Virus record (IMG/VR): IMGVR_UViG_3300018418_000088
Span: 1 to 29,263 of that record
Reading direction: 5' to 3' (one strand)
Source of the DNA: a virus
DNA: 29,263 nt
Position numbers and translations under genes: made by a program. Below are positions 5,632 through 23,494 of this stretch, one piece after another. The notes beneath the pieces are model-generated. The model saw nothing but the letters and a program-made list of their open reading frames with translations, was not told the DNA's origin and ran no database searches. Position 1 is the stretch's first letter. Each line of letters begins with the position of its first letter.

Positions 5632-5660
5632 ATTATAACACGTAAAGGATTATTTGTCAA
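5632..5660 (-). promoter_or_regulatory. Sigma70-like promoter for the 5383-5616 gene
   Basis: Minus strand: TTGACA (5660-5655), 17-base spacer, TATAAT (5637-5632), with TG one base before the -10. The -35 box lies in the last codons of the sugar dehydrogenase gene upstream. Confidence 0.83.
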
Positions 5661-6540
5661 TACGCATATCATTATTAAGCTGAATCGCTTGTTCTAAAAG
5701 TTGAAGCATTGAATAATCTCTTGATTCTTCAACAAATGCTTTTGTGTCTTTTGGGAAACAATTGCCACCGAAACCAAATCTACCATCAGGTCCTGGAACA
5801 TTCATGTGAGATGGACCGACACGAGGTTCGTGTGCCAACACACCAATAAATTCTGACCAGGAAGTTGACATGTCATATTCGGCATAAAGTTCTCTTAGTT
5901 CATTAAAAAATACTACCTTTGTAGCCAACCAGCTGTTAATAGTATATTTTAAGAAACTTGCTGCCTTAATGTCAAGTTTGAATGTTGGTACAGGTTTTAC
6001 ATCACTGTATTGAGTATACATTTGTTCTACTTTTGTACACATATCCCAATCACCACCAAAGATTTGGAAAGGTGGATTTACGAAATCATCATTTGCATTT
6101 GCTTCTGTTAAAAATTCAGGATTGTAAACAATATTAAGTTGTGTAAAAATATTTGTAAATGATTCTAACACTGAAGGTGCGACTGTGCTCTTAATGACCA
6201 CAATACCATCATATTGTTCTTTTTCAAGATTACTTAATGTAGTTTTAATTAAGTCTGCGTTTACACTACCTACAGGACCTTCAACCGAAGCCTTTGTTCT
6301 TGTTGGTGTAGGTAAACAAATAAAAATAACTTCTGGGTTTGAGTCTATAAGCTCTGCAAAAGTTAATTTTGAATGTACTGGGTCTACAATATATTGTTCT
6401 ACATTTTTAGTATCGAATCCAGTGGATACTGCTCCGCCTACAAAACCTCGGCCAATAATACCGAGTTTAAGTGTTTGAGTAGTTTTCATGTTCACCCTCT
6501 GCCTAGGTGTTTTGATTGCATTAATATTTGCTTGTTGCAT
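5650..6540 (-). CDS. Nucleotide-sugar dehydrogenase (UDP-glucose 6-dehydrogenase-like), short form
   Basis: Expected to oxidise a nucleotide sugar such as UDP-glucose to the uronic acid with two NAD+. The NAD-binding fingerprint GIIGRGFVGGAV is at residues 27-38, and the catalytic cysteine motif FGGNCFPKD places Cys at 261. The protein ends 35 residues later, so the C-terminal UDP-binding domain of full-length enzymes (about 400 residues or more) is absent. The ATG at 6540 is chosen because GGAG lies 5 bases upstream and it starts outside the dexA gene. An ATG at 6489, with GAGG upstream, starts just before the first strand and is also credible; an upstream TTG at 6585 is less likely. Confidence 0.82.
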   Translation of the reverse strand: MQQANINAIKTPRQRVNMKTTQTLKLGIIGRGFVGGAVSTGFDTKNVEQYIVDPVHSKLTFAELIDSNPEVIFICLPTPTRTKASVEGPVGSVNADLIKTTLSNLEKEQYDGIVVIKSTVAPSVLESFTNIFTQLNIVYNPEFLTEANANDDFVNPPFQIFGGDWDMCTKVEQMYTQYSDVKPVPTFKLDIKAASFLKYTINSWLATKVVFFNELRELYAEYDMSTSWSEFIGVLAHEPRVGPSHMNVPGPDGRFGFGGNCFPKDTKAFVEESRDYSMLQLLEQAIQLNNDMRIDK

Positions 6541-6559
6541 TTCTTCTCCATAATATAAA

Positions 6560-7177
6560 TTAATCAAGTTTTTCAGCTCTGTCAATAGCTTGTAATCTTA
6601 AAACATCAGCAAGGATATCCCAAGAACTATCATGAGCTTTAAAAGTCTGTTCCCATATCTTTTCATCTTCAATAGGACAGAAACCATTTTTTCTTGGAAA
6701 ATCTAATTTCGCATCAATCCATGTTCTTGTATCACGTAGTGACCAATGCGGTAAGTATTCCAAGACCTGTTGTTTTTTACCAATCACATCAAATAATCTC
6801 CATAGGATACAAGGGTCGAATGAATTACTACGAGACCACCAATGTGAGATTTTTCCATGTGGAATGAGGTATGAAATAAATTGTTCTGCAAATTGCTCTA
6901 AACTAATATCAGTATTTCTTGGCACAATATTTTTACGAACTTCTAGTGGTTGGTCCTCCCAGAATTTTACTGTGCTTTTATCTATTGTAAAGTTGTATTT
7001 AGCAACTTGTTCTCTGATATCAAATTTGTATTTTTGAACTTGTGAGATATCCTTAAAGTTATAAGGATTATTAGATGAGAATTTATCCCAGTCAAACACG
7101 AGTGCTGACATGTCAATAACTACACAATTGTTGACATCAATACCCATAGTTTCAAAGTCAATAATGCAATGTTTCAT
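6560..7177 (-). CDS. dexA: DexA-like 3'-5' exonuclease (DnaQ fold)
   Basis: A DEDDh-type exonuclease acting on single-stranded DNA 3' ends; in T4, DexA helps degrade DNA. Motifs: Exo I IIDFETMG (Asp7, Glu9), Exo II SFDPCILWRLFD (Asp121), Exo III HDSSWD (His182 with Asp187 five residues on, the DEDDh pattern). FWEDQPLEVRKNI aligns in character with T4 DexA YWKNQSPEARKNI, and the overall length of 205 is close to T4 (227). It starts after its own promoter. The sugar dehydrogenase follows within about 20 bases. Confidence 0.88.
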   Translation of the reverse strand: MKHCIIDFETMGIDVNNCVVIDMSALVFDWDKFSSNNPYNFKDISQVQKYKFDIREQVAKYNFTIDKSTVKFWEDQPLEVRKNIVPRNTDISLEQFAEQFISYLIPHGKISHWWSRSNSFDPCILWRLFDVIGKKQQVLEYLPHWSLRDTRTWIDAKLDFPRKNGFCPIEDEKIWEQTFKAHDSSWDILADVLRLQAIDRAEKLD

Positions 7178-7203
7178 AATAAAAATTCCTCAATGTATAT
7201 GCC

Positions 7204-7232
7204 ATTATAACATATATTTGGCACAATGTCAA
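7204..7232 (-). promoter_or_regulatory. Sigma70-like promoter for dexA
   Basis: Minus strand: TTGACA (7232-7227), 17-base spacer, TATAAT (7209-7204), TG one base before the -10. The TGA stop of the epimerase gene (7231-7229) is part of the -35 hexamer. Confidence 0.85.
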
Positions 7233-8089
7233 CCATTATCTACCAACCTATTTATATAATCTCTCAGATTTCGTTTTGGTTCCCAACCGAGAGCTCTGGT
7301 ATTATCAGTAATAACATCTGCCGCCATACGATTACCTTTACGAGGTGGAAGTTTTTCAATTTGACCACCAAATAATGTGGCCACGTCTAATACTGTAAAT
7401 CGTTCTGGATGGCCGATACCATATTCGTCGCCTTGGCCTTTTTCACCAATCAGAACGAGAGCGTCAACAATATCATCTACATGAGTGAAATTTCTTTGTT
7501 GTGTTCCTGGCGATACAACTGGTAATAATTGTTTCTCTTCCATCAGTCTGGCATATTTTGCAATAAGTGTAGCATATTTTCCATCTTGTATTTCTCTAGG
7601 TCCATATACATTATAAAAATATGTGATTGCATAGTCAATACCAAACCATTCAGCATACATTTTAACAAGTTCTGTATTTTTGGCTTTTGACCAGGCATAA
7701 GGACTCATTACATAATCCTTATCATCACGGTCTGCAAATTTGGTACTTGAACCAGAATAAACTAGTTTGGCATTCCATGCACGGACACATTCCAATACAC
7801 GAGTTGTACCTTCAATATTAAATTTGTGTACAAGTTCAATATCCTCGAATGATTGTTCCACACGAGAATACTCACCTAAATGATACACAATATCAAAATC
7901 ACCTTCGCCAAAATCTGGTGTCAAGTTTGTAGTACAATCCTGTACATATAAAACTTCGCGGACATGATTTTTCATTGAACCTGTAAAATAGTTATCCAAT
8001 GAACAAACCTGATGCCCTTCAGCAACAAGTCTTTCAGCCAAATGACTACCGACAAAACCTGCACCACCTGTAATTAATATTTTAGCCAT
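7229..8089 (-). CDS. NAD-dependent sugar epimerase/dehydratase (extended SDR)
   Basis: An extended short-chain dehydrogenase acting on nucleotide sugars, most like GalE-type epimerases. NAD-binding GGAGFVGSHL lies at residues 8-17; the catalytic triad region is SGSSTKF (112-118) plus YAWSK, with Tyr131 and Lys135. FYNVYGPR and RNFTHVDDIVDAL are typical substrate-side motifs. Length 286 is slightly short of the usual 310-340. Its ATG overlaps the end of the TAGT-like gene by 8 bases, so the two are translationally coupled, which suggests it supplies that enzyme's sugar donor. The exact sugar cannot be assigned. Confidence 0.83.
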   Translation of the reverse strand: MAKILITGGAGFVGSHLAERLVAEGHQVCSLDNYFTGSMKNHVREVLYVQDCTTNLTPDFGEGDFDIVYHLGEYSRVEQSFEDIELVHKFNIEGTTRVLECVRAWNAKLVYSGSSTKFADRDDKDYVMSPYAWSKAKNTELVKMYAEWFGIDYAITYFYNVYGPREIQDGKYATLIAKYARLMEEKQLLPVVSPGTQQRNFTHVDDIVDALVLIGEKGQGDEYGIGHPERFTVLDVATLFGGQIEKLPPRKGNRMAADVITDNTRALGWEPKRNLRDYINRLVDNG

Positions 8090-9311
8090 GTATTGATGTT
8101 CTCCCTTCCGGAAATATATTTGCTTCGAAATCCGGATCTGGGAATTGTTCGTCAGTATTCCAATTTCGCATTAATTGCATTCCGTAATTATCTACTTTAT
8201 TCACTATTGGTACATCTTTTTTCAATATAAGTGGATTTTGTCTAGCAGGGTATCCATGCTTATTTACGATGGCGTTGAGGTCAACATGGTGATGTACTCT
8301 TCCATATCTCTCAACGAGAGTCACACAGTCTGGGTGCATTTCTTTTAACATTTTTGATTTGTTATATGCTGGGTCATTTTCAGAATCAACATTATAATCC
8401 TCATACACTTCAGTTGTGTTTCCACCTTTTACTGTTCCCGTTCTGAGTTTACCTTGAACAAATGCGTATATTAGCATTGTACATAATCCTTCCTTAAGGA
8501 CACGGATACTCAAATCTACATCTTCATTAAACTTGCCACGCCATTTGTGCGGACAATTATTATCAATTAAAATACAGGACATCATTCTTGTATTTAGTAT
8601 AAATGGCTGATATGGGCATGGGTCAACCACAAAGAATTTATATTGGAATGAGGCGAGAGCCACATTTTCATATCTGTCAACAAAATCCTCAGTCGCCCTA
8701 AAAATACCAGAACCATTTTCTACACGGTATCGTTTGTTATGATTTAATCTGACAAACCCATCAATGTTATCGTCCATCAGCCAGTGTCTAGCATGACCAT
8801 TCGCCTGTGAATGTTCCCAGCACCAATTTCTTGCAGGACCAGAACCTTTACCATGATTACTGAAAGGAAGTTTTAATACAGTACCCAAGCCTGGAGGAGT
8901 CGCCTCAACATATTTGTCGTATTCCTGTGGTTCGACTGCAATGTAATATGGCACACCCATTTTTTCCAATGTCCTTGCGGTGTGTCTTGTATCCCATCGT
9001 CCCTTACTAATAATATAGATAGGATATCTTGGTTGAAAGTGGTCAGTATCAGTCTCAACATATCTGTTGGTCATGTTCTCTTCTCTGCCTCTAGCAGGAT
9101 AATAAACCACATTTGTTTTATTTGTCAAATTATAATCCAGTTTATCGCTGAAATGTTTTCTGTCTTCTTCTGATTTGAACTTGACAGCGATTTGTTTAAA
9201 GACATCTTTTTTCTTTGCTCTAAAGGTTGGCATACCAGCGGCATACCATTGGACATACTGATTACGCCATTCCTTTTGTAATTCTTCTTGTGTGTGAACT
9301 GGTGTATACAT
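8082..9311 (-). CDS. TET-associated glycosyltransferase-like protein (TAGT family) with extra N-terminal domain
   Basis: A 409-residue two-domain protein. Residues 27-80 form a small domain (VFKQIAVKFKSEEDRKHF, then NVVYYPARGREEN). From about 96 on, YPIYIISKGRWDTRHTARTL, PFSNHGKGSGPARNWCWEHS and HWLMDDNIDGF (a DDN acidic motif at 180-182) match what I recall of the TAGT family, described by Iyer and colleagues as glycosyltransferases linked to TET/JBP base oxidation in phages. A DNA-base glycosylation role is therefore possible, but no TET/JBP gene or hydroxymethylase is in this window, so the acceptor is open. It sits between a free-standing homologue of its N-terminal domain and the epimerase, with overlapping start and stop codons on both sides. 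Confidence 0.72.
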   Translation of the reverse strand: MYTPVHTQEELQKEWRNQYVQWYAAGMPTFRAKKKDVFKQIAVKFKSEEDRKHFSDKLDYNLTNKTNVVYYPARGREENMTNRYVETDTDHFQPRYPIYIISKGRWDTRHTARTLEKMGVPYYIAVEPQEYDKYVEATPPGLGTVLKLPFSNHGKGSGPARNWCWEHSQANGHARHWLMDDNIDGFVRLNHNKRYRVENGSGIFRATEDFVDRYENVALASFQYKFFVVDPCPYQPFILNTRMMSCILIDNNCPHKWRGKFNEDVDLSIRVLKEGLCTMLIYAFVQGKLRTGTVKGGNTTEVYEDYNVDSENDPAYNKSKMLKEMHPDCVTLVERYGRVHHHVDLNAIVNKHGYPARQNPLILKKDVPIVNKVDNYGMQLMRNWNTDEQFPDPDFEANIFPEGRTSIHG

Positions 9312-10867: not shown

Positions 10868-10896
10868 ATTATAACATAAAAAGTTGACTTTGTCAA
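10868..10896 (-). promoter_or_regulatory. Sigma70-like promoter for the 97-residue gene and glutaredoxin
   Basis: Minus strand: TTGACA (10896-10891), 17-base spacer, TATAAT (10873-10868), TG one base before the -10. The TGA stop of the sulfotransferase-like gene (10895-10893) lies inside the -35 box. Confidence 0.85.
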
Positions 10897-11624
10897 CCCG
10901 TAAAAAGTTTTTCAACATCGAACCCTTCTGGTAGTATTGGGTCCTGTTCAAATGTGACTATTCTATTATATTTTTCTTCTGGACGATTTTCAAAGAAATC
11001 CTCCATGCACACTAGCTCACCTGGATATTTTTTATAAAGCTCAGCCATGTACTCATAATTATTAGTCAGTTGTTTTACTAATCTAGTAGCGTAAAGACCT
11101 TCTGGGTTTATTACAATATGATGTTTAACTGGTTCCTCAGTTTTGCCCAAAAGTCCTAAATGTTTTTCTCTTTGTGACTCTTCAAATTGAGCCTTACTAA
11201 TTTGAGGACCAGAAATAAATCCAGTACCACCAAAGTCTCCTTGTTGTCTTACCGCAATCCAACTTTTACATTGAGCCATAAAATCTCTACGATACAAATA
11301 ATAAATTTTATCGACACTATTCATCAGCCTATCAATGTTTTTATCTTGCTGATGGAGTTGATAAGGCATATATTTAAAACAACAAGGTTCGCCATTCTCA
11401 AGTTGTTCAATAAATTTTTCGTCAGAAGCAAATTCTTTTCTTTTCTCCTTACCGAATATTCCTAATTGGTTTAATTCCCATGTTGCTTTTGCTTCACCAA
11501 GACTGTGTGGTCTTTCATGTGAAAACATCTCACCTTTAAATGGTACATTATATTCCTGTGCTTTTAAAAGCGTGAATGCAGTACTTGCTGCTCTAAAGTT
11601 TGTGACAATTAAAATTGTATTCAT
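10893..11624 (-). CDS. Sulfotransferase-like P-loop protein
   Basis: A 243-residue protein that begins with a strand and loop, ILIVTNFRAASTAFTLL (4-20), resembling the 5'-phosphosulfate-binding loop of PAPS-dependent sulfotransferases (usual form R-x-G-S-T). The second site, VDKIYYLYRRDFMAQCKSW (about 103-121), resembles the 3'-phosphate-binding strand and helix, usually with R-D-P and a conserved Ser. If correct, it transfers sulfate from PAPS to an unknown acceptor. The APS kinase and nucleotidyltransferase genes at 17.5-18.6 kb would provide the donor. Family membership is by motif only; it lies one base from the end of gp43. Confidence 0.65.
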   Translation of the reverse strand: MNTILIVTNFRAASTAFTLLKAQEYNVPFKGEMFSHERPHSLGEAKATWELNQLGIFGKEKRKEFASDEKFIEQLENGEPCCFKYMPYQLHQQDKNIDRLMNSVDKIYYLYRRDFMAQCKSWIAVRQQGDFGGTGFISGPQISKAQFEESQREKHLGLLGKTEEPVKHHIVINPEGLYATRLVKQLTNNYEYMAELYKKYPGELVCMEDFFENRPEEKYNRIVTFEQDPILPEGFDVEKLFTG

Positions 11625-16997: not shown

Positions 16998-17567
16998 TTA
17001 GTCCTGTGTCTGTGTTTCTTGAGTTTGCTGTGCCTCGAATTGTTTCATCATTGACAGATAACTCATCATTTTTGCTCTTTGTTTTTGAATTTTACTTTTC
17101 TTTTTGAGAGCTCTATCCCATTTTAAATGAGATGTTTTGTCTTTATATACTACCCCGTGCAAATGGTCATATTCATGTAAGAAACATCTTGCACCATACC
17201 CAGTAATTGTGCCTTCTTGTAGTTGTAGATTTTCATCATACCATTTTGCCTTCACATCAGCTGGTCTTTTAATTTGTACAAATACATCTGGAAAACTTAA
17301 ACAACCTTCATAATCCAAAACTTCCTCTTCGGATACATCAATAACTTCTGGATTGATAAACATTGCGATTGCGTCTTCTTTTTCTCCCATGATAAAGAGT
17401 TTATGGTCAAGACCAACTTGACATGCTGATAAACCCAAACCTCTCTTTTCAAGCATAATTTTTATCATCTGCTCTTTAAGTTCTTTTGGGTCAAAGCCTG
17501 GATTTTCAATATTTACATCTGCCAATTCCTTTTTTAAAATTGGGTCTGGGTAGTATACTAACTTCAT
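16998..17567 (-). CDS. def: Peptide deformylase
   Basis: Removes the formyl group from nascent proteins. The three family motifs are present: GLGLSACQVG (43-52), EGCLSFP (Cys89 metal ligand) and HEYDHLHG (His131 and His135 ligands, Glu132 catalytic). Motif I has Ser where most bacterial enzymes have Ala or Gly. The C-terminus extends past the core with a basic helix and a Gln/Thr-rich tail. Deformylases are known in marine phages. The ATG overlaps the stop of the nucleotidyltransferase gene (ATGA). Confidence 0.94.
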   Translation of the reverse strand: MKLVYYPDPILKKELADVNIENPGFDPKELKEQMIKIMLEKRGLGLSACQVGLDHKLFIMGEKEDAIAMFINPEVIDVSEEEVLDYEGCLSFPDVFVQIKRPADVKAKWYDENLQLQEGTITGYGARCFLHEYDHLHGVVYKDKTSHLKWDRALKKKSKIQKQRAKMMSYLSMMKQFEAQQTQETQTQD

Positions 17568-17989
17568 AATTTACCTTCTTCTCTCATTTGAGCACGAATT
17601 TTAGTTGCTGAAATATCGTGGATATCTTTTCCTAAATCATGCTCTGTAAATGTATAACCGACTCCGCGGCCATAACTAATATCAACAATATTTGGTACTT
17701 CAAGTATTAGATATTCTCGGCCATTCATATAGCCGTGTTCTGCTAATCCTTTTTCAATGCCTTCAATGGTCTGTATCATTCCAAATGGATTATCGTCTTG
17801 TACTACGGTACGGCCTGCTCCTGCATCGCCGTCAAATTGAAATACATCACGTACCATTATAACAACTTGACCAGTAATGTCAAGGGCTTTTTTAAATAAT
17901 TCTGTGTGACCATCGTGCCACGGTTGCCACCTACCCAACATCTGAACTGTTGGTTTCTTGTAATCGAACATATCTTGTGGGTCTATCAT
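17564..17989 (-). CDS. HxGH nucleotidyltransferase, candidate ATP sulfurylase-like enzyme
   Basis: A 141-residue member of the HxGH nucleotidyltransferase superfamily: MLGRWQPWHDGHTELF carries His25-x-Gly-His28, and DISATKIRAQM carries the second ATP-binding motif (I-S-x-T-x-x-R). Such enzymes transfer AMP or CMP to a phosphate-like acceptor. Overlap by ATGA with a DUF2061 gene, followed upstream by APS kinase, suggests it forms APS from ATP and sulfate, but it is far smaller than known ATP sulfurylases and this substrate is inferred from context only. A cytidylyl- or NMN-type activity is an alternative. Confidence 0.72.
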   Translation of the reverse strand: MIDPQDMFDYKKPTVQMLGRWQPWHDGHTELFKKALDITGQVVIMVRDVFQFDGDAGAGRTVVQDDNPFGMIQTIEGIEKGLAEHGYMNGREYLILEVPNIVDISYGRGVGYTFTEHDLGKDIHDISATKIRAQMREEGKL

Positions 17990-18213
17990 TTGTTTACTCC
18001 AAATTTACTATATTTGTACCATACACGTTCGTGATAATAATATAGAATCATCTTTGTGGCAACTTCGAAACCTGCAATCATACCTGCCCAGTCAACCTTT
18101 CCTGTGATTAACCATGCAAGTAGAAAAGTATCTGTTGTTGCTACTACTCTCCATGTAAGGGTTTTTGCTAAGTGTCTTTTCGCACTTATTTTTTCTTCTG
18201 ATTTCTTTGCCAT
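17986..18213 (-). CDS. DUF2061 family membrane protein
   Basis: A 75-residue protein with two hydrophobic segments (TDTFLLAWLITG and AGMIAGFEVATKMILYYYHE) framed by the family-type ends KRHLAKTLTWRVVATT and YYHERVWYK. DUF2061 proteins are often found beside sulfate-assimilation genes in bacteria (from memory), which fits the neighbours on both sides; a role as partner or transporter is inferred. The ATG at 18213 lies within the end of the APS kinase gene (28-base overlap); a longer in-frame start would overlap it further and adds residues not typical of the family. The stop overlaps the next ATG. Confidence 0.82.
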   Translation of the reverse strand: MAKKSEEKISAKRHLAKTLTWRVVATTDTFLLAWLITGKVDWAGMIAGFEVATKMILYYYHERVWYKYSKFGVNK

Positions 18214-18626
18214 GTTGCGAAAGCCTTTTCTAGGATTGGTGCGAGTTCCAGATGTGTTGCTGGATACCACTCTGTAATCAAATAATCACAATGTTTTGGT
18301 TTTTCAAAGATTTTATTTGTATCTTCAAATCTACCTTCCTCAATAGTATCCATCCAAACTGTATAATCTGGGTCAAACGAATTACGAGCTTCTTGGAATG
18401 GGCATACAAAATCTGTAATTGCAATTTTACCAGCCTTGGATACACCATCAGCCAATAATCTCATTCTCATTGCTTGTCTCATTCGTCCTTCATCACTGAA
18501 GTCCCAATCATTATATTCTTCTCTTATTGCGTCTGCGTTAATCCAGACACCTTCAACCTGCTCTGCGAGCGGTTCTGATAACGTGCTTTTTCCTGAGCCG
18601 GGTAGGCCAAAGACTAATACTTTCAT
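18186..18626 (-). CDS. cysC: Adenylylsulfate (APS) kinase-like
   Basis: Expected to phosphorylate APS to PAPS, the sulfate donor for sulfotransferases. The P-loop GLPGSGKST is at residues 7-15; WINADAIREEYNDWDFSDEGR corresponds to the family D-G-D-x-x-R and F-S segments; ITDFVCPFQEARNSF matches the A-F-I-S-P-F region; IFEKPKHCDYLI is typical of the end. At 146 residues it is shorter than bacterial CysC (about 200). It shares TAATG with the gp55 stop, so it is expressed with the late sigma factor. Another small-molecule kinase of the same fold is possible. Confidence 0.82.
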   Translation of the reverse strand: MKVLVFGLPGSGKSTLSEPLAEQVEGVWINADAIREEYNDWDFSDEGRMRQAMRMRLLADGVSKAGKIAITDFVCPFQEARNSFDPDYTVWMDTIEEGRFEDTNKIFEKPKHCDYLITEWYPATHLELAPILEKAFATWQRNQKKK

Positions 18627-19114
18627 TATTTTTTCTTCTTTTTGTGTTTTTGTTCAAATTCGTCTACGAACTCATTAATATAATCCGGAAGTTCGTTCTG
18701 TGGAACTTGGTCTCCAGCACTATTTAAAATATTCAGTTCGTGATTTTGTTGTTGAGATGCTTTAAACTTGATATACATCTGCTTTTTCTCTTTGTGAATC
18801 CTACGGAGAAAAGCATACCATATAATCTGTGTAAAGTACGCGAATGGGTTGTTTGATTTTTCTGGATTGAAGTTATGAATATATTGTAGACAATTCTCAA
18901 TACCATCTGAAATCATCTCCTCTTTATATGAGTATCCGGAGAAGTTTGGTTTCGTTGCGAGTCTTGTTGCAATTAACAAGATACACTTTCCAATGTATTC
19001 CGGAACTTGAGGATTCTTTTCACCACAATTTTCAGCTTCTTTGACAGAGGCTTGGTAGTCAATTAAAGCCTGTAATAGGTCTTTGTTATTGACATAGTTT
19101 CTTTTTCTTGCCAT
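18626..19114 (-). CDS. 55: Late transcription sigma factor (gp55)
   Basis: Highly divergent sigma70-family protein that directs host RNA polymerase to TATAAATA late promoters. The match to T4 is clear: RNYVNNKDLLQALIDYQASV, NFSGYSYKEEMISDGIENCL and NPFAYFTQIIWYAFLRRIHKEKKQ correspond to T4 [35 protein letters not shown] and [21 protein letters not shown]. Length 162 against 185. The C-terminal lysine run (HKKKKK) may replace the T4 clamp-binding end. It has its own promoter and heads the transcript through APS kinase and deformylase. Confidence 0.95.
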   Translation of the reverse strand: MARKRNYVNNKDLLQALIDYQASVKEAENCGEKNPQVPEYIGKCILLIATRLATKPNFSGYSYKEEMISDGIENCLQYIHNFNPEKSNNPFAYFTQIIWYAFLRRIHKEKKQMYIKFKASQQQNHELNILNSAGDQVPQNELPDYINEFVDEFEQKHKKKKK

Positions 19115-22095: not shown

Positions 22096-22806
22096 ATGAG
22101 AATCAAATCATTTTCCTATGACATGGATATGGGCGGACTTGCCCTCCACGAAGTCGCACGACTACATCACACATTTTTCGTCGATAAAAAATATGACTGG
22201 TGGTATGAAGTATTACCAGACGATGTCGTAGTTGATATTGGAGCTGGAACAGGAATGTTCTCAGCAAAAGCTTTAGATGCTGGCGCGAAAAAAGTTTATA
22301 TGATTGAACCTAATAAAAGACTTTTAAAAACAGCGATTAAAAATGTCAGCGAATATATGATGGATACTGAAACTCCTAAGGTCATACCAATTAATGCCGC
22401 AATAGGTAAAACAGATATTGATTTAAGTAATGTTTATAAATCAAGTACAATTGTAGAAGAAGATGAGGACTGTAAGCTTTCATCGTTTAGAGAATTCGTA
22501 GGTAAATATGATTTAAACCATATTGATTTTTTAAAGATTGATGCTGAGGGTGCTGAATTAAACTTCCTACCTGAACACTTAGATTATATTTCATCTCATG
22601 TACGACACGCAGCAATTAATGTTCACGTTGATGCTCAATATGGCGCTGCTGATAAGTTTTGGAATTTTAGGTCAAAGATTATTAAACCATTTTTAGATAC
22701 AAATAGGTTAAGATTCCAAGATGAAACTTTAAGAGATAAAGTAATGGCTCAAAATTGGAATCAACTTGTACCAAGAGAATTTATGATTTATATTACTAAT
22801 TACTAA
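22096..22806 (+). CDS. FkbM-family methyltransferase (paralogue A)
   Basis: SAM-dependent methyltransferase of the FkbM type, which usually O-methylates sugars or small metabolites. Motif I is VVVDIGAGTGMFSAKAL (44-60), the acidic motif II YMIEPNKR, and the family-specific IDFLKIDAEGAE (around 143-154) with its D-x-E-G pair. The ribosome site GAGG is 7 bases before the ATG. It is the only plus-strand gene between 216 and 27360. It converges on a clear paralogue: both share the motif order and the ending F-M-(I/L)-Y-I-(T/S)-N, and the two frames overlap by 11 bases. The methyl acceptor may be a glycan made by the sugar genes here, but this is only an inference. Confidence 0.85.
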   Translation: MRIKSFSYDMDMGGLALHEVARLHHTFFVDKKYDWWYEVLPDDVVVDIGAGTGMFSAKALDAGAKKVYMIEPNKRLLKTAIKNVSEYMMDTETPKVIPINAAIGKTDIDLSNVYKSSTIVEEDEDCKLSSFREFVGKYDLNHIDFLKIDAEGAELNFLPEHLDYISSHVRHAAINVHVDAQYGAADKFWNFRSKIIKPFLDTNRLRFQDETLRDKVMAQNWNQLVPREFMIYITNY

Positions 22807-22819
22807 TATAGAGCATAAA
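22780..22819. repeat. Palindrome formed by the overlapping 3' ends of the two FkbM genes
   Basis: The last 27 bases of the plus gene (22780-22806) and of the minus gene (22819-22793) read almost the same in their own directions (23 of 27), and they overlap, making a 40-base imperfect palindrome with 17 of 20 paired positions plus one G-U. It encodes the same C-terminal peptide pattern on both strands and could act as a bidirectional terminator hairpin. Confidence 0.8.
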
Positions 22820-23494
22820 AGAACACCAATCCGTTTTATTTCCATTATATAAAAAGAAATCATTATAGGCATTCTCTCGATCTTCGTGTTCTAAAAATCT
22901 AATTTGGTCTGTATCGAATCGTTGAAGCAATGTATCTCTTACGCGAATCCATTGTTTAACTTGCCAAGGATTTGTGACATGGAATTCTACCGCGATATGA
23001 CCAACAGCATTTTTCAAGTATGACATATTTGATTCCTTGAAAATGTCATACTCTCCACCTTCGCAATCTATTTTAAGATAATCAATCCAAGAAATGTCAT
23101 ACTCTGTCATACACTCAGCAAAATTCATTACTCTAAATGAAGTGTCTGTATTATTATTGAAAACATTCTGATAATGTTCTCTGTCGCTTCCTATAGCGGC
23201 GTGTATCGGCACAACAGGTAATTCCCCATTGTCTATAAAGTATGCTGATGTATTTTTTAAGAGCGTTTGAAGATGAGCTCGTGAAGGCTCGATAGCGTAT
23301 ATCCTATGAGCCCCACAATCAAGAGCATGGCATGTAAAGAAACCCACACAAGAACCAATATCGACGACAACATCAAGAGGCTGAACATCACGATACCATT
23401 CATAATCCTTTCTATGAAAGAACTCATGATAGAGAGTATTGATGTCATTGAGTGGTAATCCTTCTACACTTAAGTTTTTATTTAAATATCTCAT
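22796..23494 (-). CDS. FkbM-family methyltransferase (paralogue B)
   Basis: A 232-residue FkbM methyltransferase. Motif I VVVDIGSCVGFFTCHAL (42-58), motif II YAIEPSRAHL, and the family segment IDYLKIDCEGGEYDIF. Around these the two paralogues keep the same layout (LYHEFFHRKDYEWYRDVQPL against LHHTFFVDKKYDWWYEVLPD; VPIHAAIGSD against IPINAAIGKT; IRFLEHEDRENA against LRFQDETLRDKV), so they derive from one gene, but they have diverged to moderate identity. The 5' end overlaps the small gene upstream by 17 bases and is probably carried on the gp39/gp52 transcript. Confidence 0.85.
   Translation of the reverse strand: MRYLNKNLSVEGLPLNDINTLYHEFFHRKDYEWYRDVQPLDVVVDIGSCVGFFTCHALDCGAHRIYAIEPSRAHLQTLLKNTSAYFIDNGELPVVPIHAAIGSDREHYQNVFNNNTDTSFRVMNFAECMTEYDISWIDYLKIDCEGGEYDIFKESNMSYLKNAVGHIAVEFHVTNPWQVKQWIRVRDTLLQRFDTDQIRFLEHEDRENAYNDFFLYNGNKTDWCSFMLYISN

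Follow-up and report, generated by a model that had tools for sequence, protein, structure and literature searches.

The IMG/VR virus record IMGVR_UViG_3300018418_000088, analysed here over its whole length of 29,263 bases (the window), carries on its minus strand three overlapping genes encoding an adenosine 5'-phosphosulfate (APS) kinase-like P-loop kinase (K), a small DUF2061 protein (D) and a compact nucleotidyltransferase (NT). We read this cassette as a phage-borne module that would make 3'-phosphoadenosine 5'-phosphosulfate (PAPS), with NT acting as a miniature ATP sulfurylase, and we give this reading a probability of about 0.7; the chemistry, and the direction in which it would run, we infer from genome context. 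K and NT probably make activated sulfate, because their bacterial relatives occupy the places of sulfate-activating enzymes. A wider proposal appears to us somewhat better than an even bet: that NT represents a third family of ATP sulfurylases and is the missing enzyme of sulfite oxidation in SAR11, that phages, including T4-like ones, possess with NT and an APS kinase the full kit for making PAPS, and that NT and K have been exchanged between phages and one SAR11 lineage. The first-pass annotation of the window had proposed a sulfate-activation unit with an APS kinase and a much reduced ATP sulfurylase. The latter, as a predicted activity, is supported by the genome context of the bacterial relatives; the unit itself is supported by the cysH and aprMBA surroundings of these relatives and by the rarity of known ATP sulfurylases, but not by the sulfotransferase and the DUF2061 marker that had been brought in on its behalf.

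NT matched 17 of the 385 genomes in a class-wide sample, five of them weakly and perhaps as other nucleotidyltransferases. Four genomes of this sample (G364, G187, G055, and G285; loci L253 and L262-L264) share the gene order cysG-cysI-cysH-D-K-NT. In L253, the uroporphyrinogen-III methyltransferase (273.5 bits, cut-off 185), the sulfite reductase (NF010029, 709 bits, cut-off 457), and the PAPS reductase (NF002537, 248 bits, cut-off 154) were identified by profile, and DUF2061 was also matched; in L262-L264, D, K, and NT were identified by profile and the cys genes were read by eye. Because these operons end in D-K-NT, with CysD above its cut-off in none of the four genomes and Sat in one, K-NT holds the place of cysDNC or sat-cysC. 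In five further loci (L255 and L265-L268), NT is located directly upstream of aprM-aprB-aprA with no K nearby; sat takes the same place before aprMBA in some sulfur oxidisers. AprA and AprB of L265 scored above their cut-offs, and aprM was named by its position, its profile matches being weak or none.

A scan of bacterial genomes, covering the best 80 of 139 NT relatives, returned loci mostly from SAR11 (Pelagibacteraceae) or uncultured Alphaproteobacteria. K adjoins NT, or only D intervenes, in 78 of the 80; in L202 and L225 a gene of the CysQ cluster was found at the usual place of K. Within 6 kb of NT we counted the CysQ cluster in 45 loci, AprA in 35, and Xsc in 30, although these counts are not independent because many loci are near-identical. 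One representative each of CysQ, AprA, AprB, and Xsc scored above the curated cut-offs. Of the 32 genomes in which this first scan placed NT, one contained Sat.

The association was examined further in 147 genomes from the order to which the genome of L216 (Pelagibacteraceae) belongs. NT was detected in 110 of these (E <= 0.001), a few copies being partial or broken (e.g., G329, G502, and G505), and AprA exceeded its cut-off in 108, CysD in nine, and Sat in six. NT and AprA occurred together in 101 genomes, NT only in nine, AprA only in seven, and neither in 30 (Fisher p 8e-17, phylogeny ignored). CysD was found in none of the 110 genomes with NT versus nine of the 37 others, whereas Sat (5/110 versus 1/37) had no relation to NT. 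With Sat in 6/147 genomes beside AprA in 108/147, chance gaps alone do not account for its rarity, even though completeness is not given for these genomes. Among 100 genomes in which the places of NT and aprA were compared, the two were within 5 kb of each other in 37 and farther apart but on a shared contig in 13; the remaining 50 had them on different contigs. The K-NT genes of one member of the order, G423 (contig C1 from about 1,199,270; L271:9270-10054), stand between ORFs (open reading frames) that by eye resemble a Rieske-type oxygenase and an enoyl-CoA hydratase; neither Sat nor CysD was matched by profile in this genome.

These counts bear on a gap in the sulfur metabolism of SAR11. 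ATP sulfurylase is missing from most SAR11, according to the available passages of PMC10356861. As SAR11 does have APS reductase, this raises the question of how the oxidation of sulfite from taurine and other sulfonates is completed. The available portion of PMC5069961 describes P. ubique as without cysDNCHIJ and sat and suggests that AprBA may detoxify sulfite. In Table 3 of that paper, however, cysC and cysQ do appear, cysC occurring in the strains that also have aprA; cysD is given for one strain and cysN for two, insofar as the text layout can be followed (PMC5069961). The part of PMC2211403 available to us contains nothing on ATP sulfurylase in Pelagibacter. NT is a candidate for the missing step. 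A literature search found no description of such an enzyme among its top-ranked results, most subscription journals being outside its coverage.

In viruses, K and NT are found together almost without exception. The best 80 of 438 NT stretches and the best 80 of 115 K stretches in IMG/VR yielded 145 distinct viral contigs after removal of 11 duplicates, with identities to the window of 82-100% for NT and 60-100% for K among the retained relatives. Because relatives were found in this many contigs, the K and NT ORFs are not chance ORFs. Both genes are present in 136 of the 145 contigs, always with K before NT on one strand, and seven of the nine contigs that do not hold both are cut by the contig end. 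The gene D separates K from NT in 68 distinct contigs; of the 67 that lack it, 63 have K and NT overlapping or at most 60 bases apart (stop to stop). D is therefore optional and K-NT the core, since the two remain close in the many contigs from which D is absent.

The PHROG_10255 family ("kinase", 230 positions) spans both proteins, K matching positions 3-113 (6.6e-32) and NT positions 122-228 (3.1e-17). Five annotated phage records match K and NT, and in all three siphophage records examined the two form a single fused gene; K-NT fusions also occur in six bacterial loci. In a phylogeny of 57 NT sequences, all the IMG/VR phage forms group with a single SAR11 lineage and a small number of further bacterial sequences in a clade of 40 (support 100/97), whereas the G423 form, the fusions, and the forms from aprMBA loci and cysH operons fall outside this clade. 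Because the branching within the clade is largely unresolved, the tree does not decide the direction of transfer between phages and SAR11. Some contigs in bacterial bins are phage-like: L161, L162, L211 (Rhodobacteraceae bin Water_Bin34), L239, and L240 (a Neomarinimicrobiota metagenome-assembled genome). They were recognised by neighbours common with the viral contigs, and in L239 and L240 by a deformylase gene after NT.

K (18186-18626, minus strand, ATG start, 146 residues) matched the Pfam APS_kinase family (PF01583) with 38.2 bits, above the curated cut-off of 21.1; it did not reach the cut-off of the NCBIfam apsK equivalog domain (34.5 versus 138.7 bits), and we therefore call it APS-kinase-like and not a standard CysC. 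When a profile of 34 K sequences was searched against the PDB, an APS kinase ranked first and most of the matches below it were APS kinases. Residues G7, G10, G12, K13, D32, R35, F43, and R48 are invariant across the 34 sequences. The first-pass annotation had held that a kinase lacking APS-binding residues would speak against its proposal. At the positions that we take to form the APS site, most residues are kept in K and some are not: the position of the APS-site Asn is Gln51, and the C-terminal lid could not be aligned. Up to E 1, none of K, D, and NT matched CysD or CysN profiles, the one exception being K, which aligned with the kinase portion of the CysN-CysC model PRK05506. On these sequence features K is a predicted APS kinase-like protein. 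We also considered a role in a defence system and set it aside, as the PADLOC matches to K were weak only (best 1.1e-5).

NT (17564-17989, minus strand, ATG start, 141 residues) contains HDGH (HxGH) at residues 25-28 and ISATKIR at 126-132. H25, G27, H28, and R132 are conserved in 57 of 57 sequences, and S127 and T129 in 56. With HxGH and ISxTxxR motifs and a Rossmann-like fold, NT has the characters of the HIGH nucleotidyltransferase superfamily, to which Sat belongs as well. NT did not reach the cut-offs of CTP_transf_like (19.2 bits, cut-off 21), of the Sat ATP-sulfurylase family (PF01747; 11.2 bits, cut-off 24.3), or of two models of the nicotinamide mononucleotide (NMN) adenylyltransferase NadM (26.3 bits, cut-off 127; 22.7 bits, cut-off 181.2). 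The NadM profile alignment stops at about residue 100. A clear match to an NMN transferase had been named beforehand as a result that would overturn the proposal; an archaeal NMN adenylyltransferase is indeed nearest to NT, but its score is far below the cut-off and the resemblance is found largely in the first two thirds. A profile of 39 NT sequences searched against the PDB likewise returned NMN adenylyltransferases first. The AlphaFold2 (AF2) model of NT has a mean confidence (pLDDT) of 80.9, with residues 101-130 weak; in VIA it gave Z 9.3 to PPAT (root-mean-square deviation 2.9, 112 residues aligned) and Z 9.2 to an archaeal NMN adenylyltransferase. Sat was not among the fold matches listed by Foldseek and VIA, which carries no weight either way. 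The substrate of NT cannot be told from its fold.

D (17986-18213, minus strand) is a predicted small membrane protein of 75 residues if read from the ATG; in the ORF list its start is instead a GTG (18270). It matched DUF2061 (PF09834; 4.5e-22) with 78.7 bits, well above the cut-off of 23.1. DUF2061 had been taken as a general marker of sulfur metabolism, and this was not borne out; the idea that it generally accompanies CysC was likewise abandoned. The domain is present in 64 of the 299 genomes of a Pseudomonadota sample, and genes for CysD, CysN, CysH, CysI, CysG, CysQ, AprA, K, or NT (Sat and CysJ were not included) were found within 1.5 kb on each side in 0 of 30 Pseudomonadota DUF2061 loci and within about 8 kb in 0 of 12 chosen loci, these being mostly the nearest to the phage form or two-copy. 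The form of DUF2061 linked to K-NT does have sulfur ties in bacteria.

In the mechanism that we propose, NT would catalyse sulfate + ATP <-> APS + pyrophosphate. It would be a miniature ATP sulfurylase (about 120-140 residues) of a third kind, distinct from CysDN and no more than a distant relative of Sat. K would then convert APS to PAPS by phosphorylating the 3' position of the ribose, drawing the reaction forward. The DUF2061 protein would be a small membrane partner that, as a guess, may recruit K-NT to the membrane or contribute to sulfate supply. In SAR11, NT would work in reverse behind APS reductase, with sulfite + AMP giving APS, and APS + pyrophosphate giving ATP + sulfate.

Several findings weigh against this mechanism. 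At the position of the Sat motif QxRN, which precedes HxxH and which we take to bind sulfate, NT has GRWQ (in GRWQPWHDGH), with G19, R20, and Q22 present in 57 of 57 sequences. Among solved structures, profile and model comparisons place NT nearest to NMN adenylyltransferases and PPAT rather than to Sat; the best Foldseek E-value was 0.003 (HldC), and no match had E <= 0.001. In the SAR11 order, seven genomes with AprA lack NT and nine genomes with NT lack a full AprA, five of the six Sat-bearing genomes also hold NT, and in G423 K-NT lies far from aprA. Together with the presence of Sat in one of the four cysH-operon genomes (G055, elsewhere in the genome), the Sat-bearing SAR11-order genomes mean that the exclusion between NT and Sat is not strict. 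Viral contigs L119 and L120 contain gp55-K-D without NT or deformylase. No PAPS user was found among 49 phage records with K-NT (46 longer viral contigs and three annotated phages, mostly fragments, the window phage not among them). A Microvirga plasmid (L245:8211-13761) speaks for the mechanism, with reservations: it encodes a sulfotransferase, a K-NT fusion, CysD, and CysN with a C-terminal DUF2061. Its NT differs at 8 of 27 near-invariant columns of the 57 other NT sequences, including G27, R108, and R132, and this loss of motif residues suggests decay of NT beside a known ATP sulfurylase (cysDN). L245 was left out when the columns were selected, however, so that differences are more likely to turn up, and the plasmid is a single case. 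On the opposing side, in G218, an intact fused NT and a CysD-like ORF below the cut-off occur in one genome. Relatives of K are also encoded on the plasmids L241, L242, and L243, from Rhizobium, Methylosinus, and Rhodoferax, where no match to NT was obtained in the vicinity; on L241 and L243, K is accompanied by a Sulfotransfer_3 gene, either adjacent or a short distance away.

Other explanations were also weighed. K might be an APS kinase while NT acts on another sulfur intermediate or co-substrate, for instance as an APS:phosphate adenylyltransferase, with APS made by others. The sulfur context would suit any enzyme acting on APS, NT stands beside aprMBA with no K nearby, some plasmids have K close to sulfotransferases but no NT, and Sat is also present in some NT genomes. 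However, the cysH operons need a maker of APS and three of the four genomes have neither Sat nor CysD (perhaps because they are incomplete), no NT genome of the SAR11 order has CysD, and the NT that lies next to cysDN appears to have decayed; we consider this explanation unlikely. A salvage pathway for nicotinamide adenine dinucleotide (NAD) would have K act on nicotinamide riboside and NT join NMN to ATP, as a NadR-like pair in reverse order that rebuilds NAD in the phage. The best distant matches of NT are NadM-type NMN adenylyltransferases with a similar GRxQPxHxGH motif, NadR pairs a kinase with an NMN adenylyltransferase, and NAD salvage genes are known in phages. Yet the better NadM score is about 100 bits short of its cut-off and its alignment ends near residue 100, K resembles APS kinases, and the bacterial neighbours are CysQ, AprA/B, Xsc, CysH, and CysI (NAD genes were not searched for as such), all of which makes NAD salvage very improbable.

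The module might also run in reverse in the phage, with NT making ATP from pyrophosphate released by phage DNA synthesis and from APS that the host APS reductase forms out of sulfite, and with K and PAPS secondary. The SAR11 relatives hold NT together with aprBA, and the 49 phage records gave no PAPS consumer; but the phages nearly always keep K with NT, and K would be superfluous if the module ran only in reverse, so that we regard this as distinctly unlikely. Finally, the first-pass annotation had joined the cassette to a sulfotransferase-like ORF of 243 residues (10893-11624, minus strand) as a set that would make and use PAPS. Such a four-gene system might sulfate a phage or host surface molecule. 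By eye, this ORF begins with a PAPS-loop-like segment and contains RRDxxxxCKSW farther on, and relatives of K are next or close to genuine sulfotransferase genes on two plasmids, as is the K-NT fusion on a third (L245). It matched no sulfotransferase family in the Pfam, PHROG, and NCBIfam profiles (E up to 1) and nothing in annotated phages; its only IMG/VR relatives are five, all identical over 243 residues, and its AF2 model, built from a single sequence, was unusable (pLDDT 32.9). Sulfotransfer_3 and PAPS reductase were each found in 0 of the 49 K-NT records. The four-gene system is therefore not general, and we think it rather unlikely in the window; the sulfotransferase-like ORF is lineage-specific and is not supported as a partner of the cassette. 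If the cassette makes PAPS as we propose, the user may be a host enzyme or an unrecognised gene, and there may be none if K-NT runs backwards with the host APS reductase.

The cassette is part of a longer overlapping run of five minus-strand genes: gp55, K, D, NT, and peptide deformylase. The gp55-type late sigma factor gene (18626-19114, minus strand; phrog_234, 9.5e-61) is the upstream neighbour of K and shares one base with it, K and D overlap by 28 bases (18186-18213), D and NT by four (ATGA, 17986-17989), and NT overlaps the downstream peptide deformylase gene (16998-17567, minus strand; PF01327, 4.1e-39) by four. The three-gene unit with its 28-base and ATGA overlaps was thus recovered as first annotated; it does lie directly behind gp55, but the run does not end with it. 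Among the 136 K-NT contigs, gp55 is present in 71, deformylase in 52, and all five genes in 50. In L119, a gp47-like ORF directly follows D. The DNA polymerase encoded in the window is similar to that of T4-like phages (best match Phage C48C1 with 45% identity, then Synechococcus phages with 44%). Elsewhere in the window, two ORFs that by eye resemble each other and FkbM-type methyltransferases lie tail to tail (22096-22806, plus strand; 22796-23494, minus strand). Sugar-nucleotide genes, also read by eye, occupy 5650-9311 (nucleotide-sugar dehydrogenase, epimerase, and glycosyltransferase-like ORFs) and are possibly a surface-sugar set.

SAR11 is among the most abundant groups of marine bacteria. 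The analysis names one candidate gene for its sulfur step, and the question is testable with one purified protein. If the proposal is true, genomes called as lacking sulfate activation from Sat and CysDN profiles may have been called wrongly for many marine organisms, and a sulfate-activating step is carried by phages.

Among known systems, the PAPS synthases (Sat-CysC fusions) share the two-step logic of a kinase fused or coupled to an adenylyltransferase; their adenylyltransferase is of another family, and NT is much smaller. PHROG_10255 contains both domains in the order and with the motifs of the window proteins, but the family has no assigned substrate, and where its siphophage members are fused the window genes are split with DUF2061 between them. 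K shares with CysC the P-loop, the Asp and Arg of NADxxR, the following Phe and Arg positions, and the FVxP segment; it differs in its length of 146 residues and in having RFEDTNxxF in place of part of the C-terminal lid. The reaction proposed for NT is that of Sat and of CysDN. Sat is much larger and has the QxRN motif that NT lacks; CysDN has another fold plus a GTPase subunit and never occurs with NT in the SAR11-order sample. NadM and the archaeal NMN adenylyltransferases share GRxQPxHxGH and the S/T-R motif with NT, whereas the second half of NT is left unaligned by their profile and its gene neighbours belong to sulfur metabolism.

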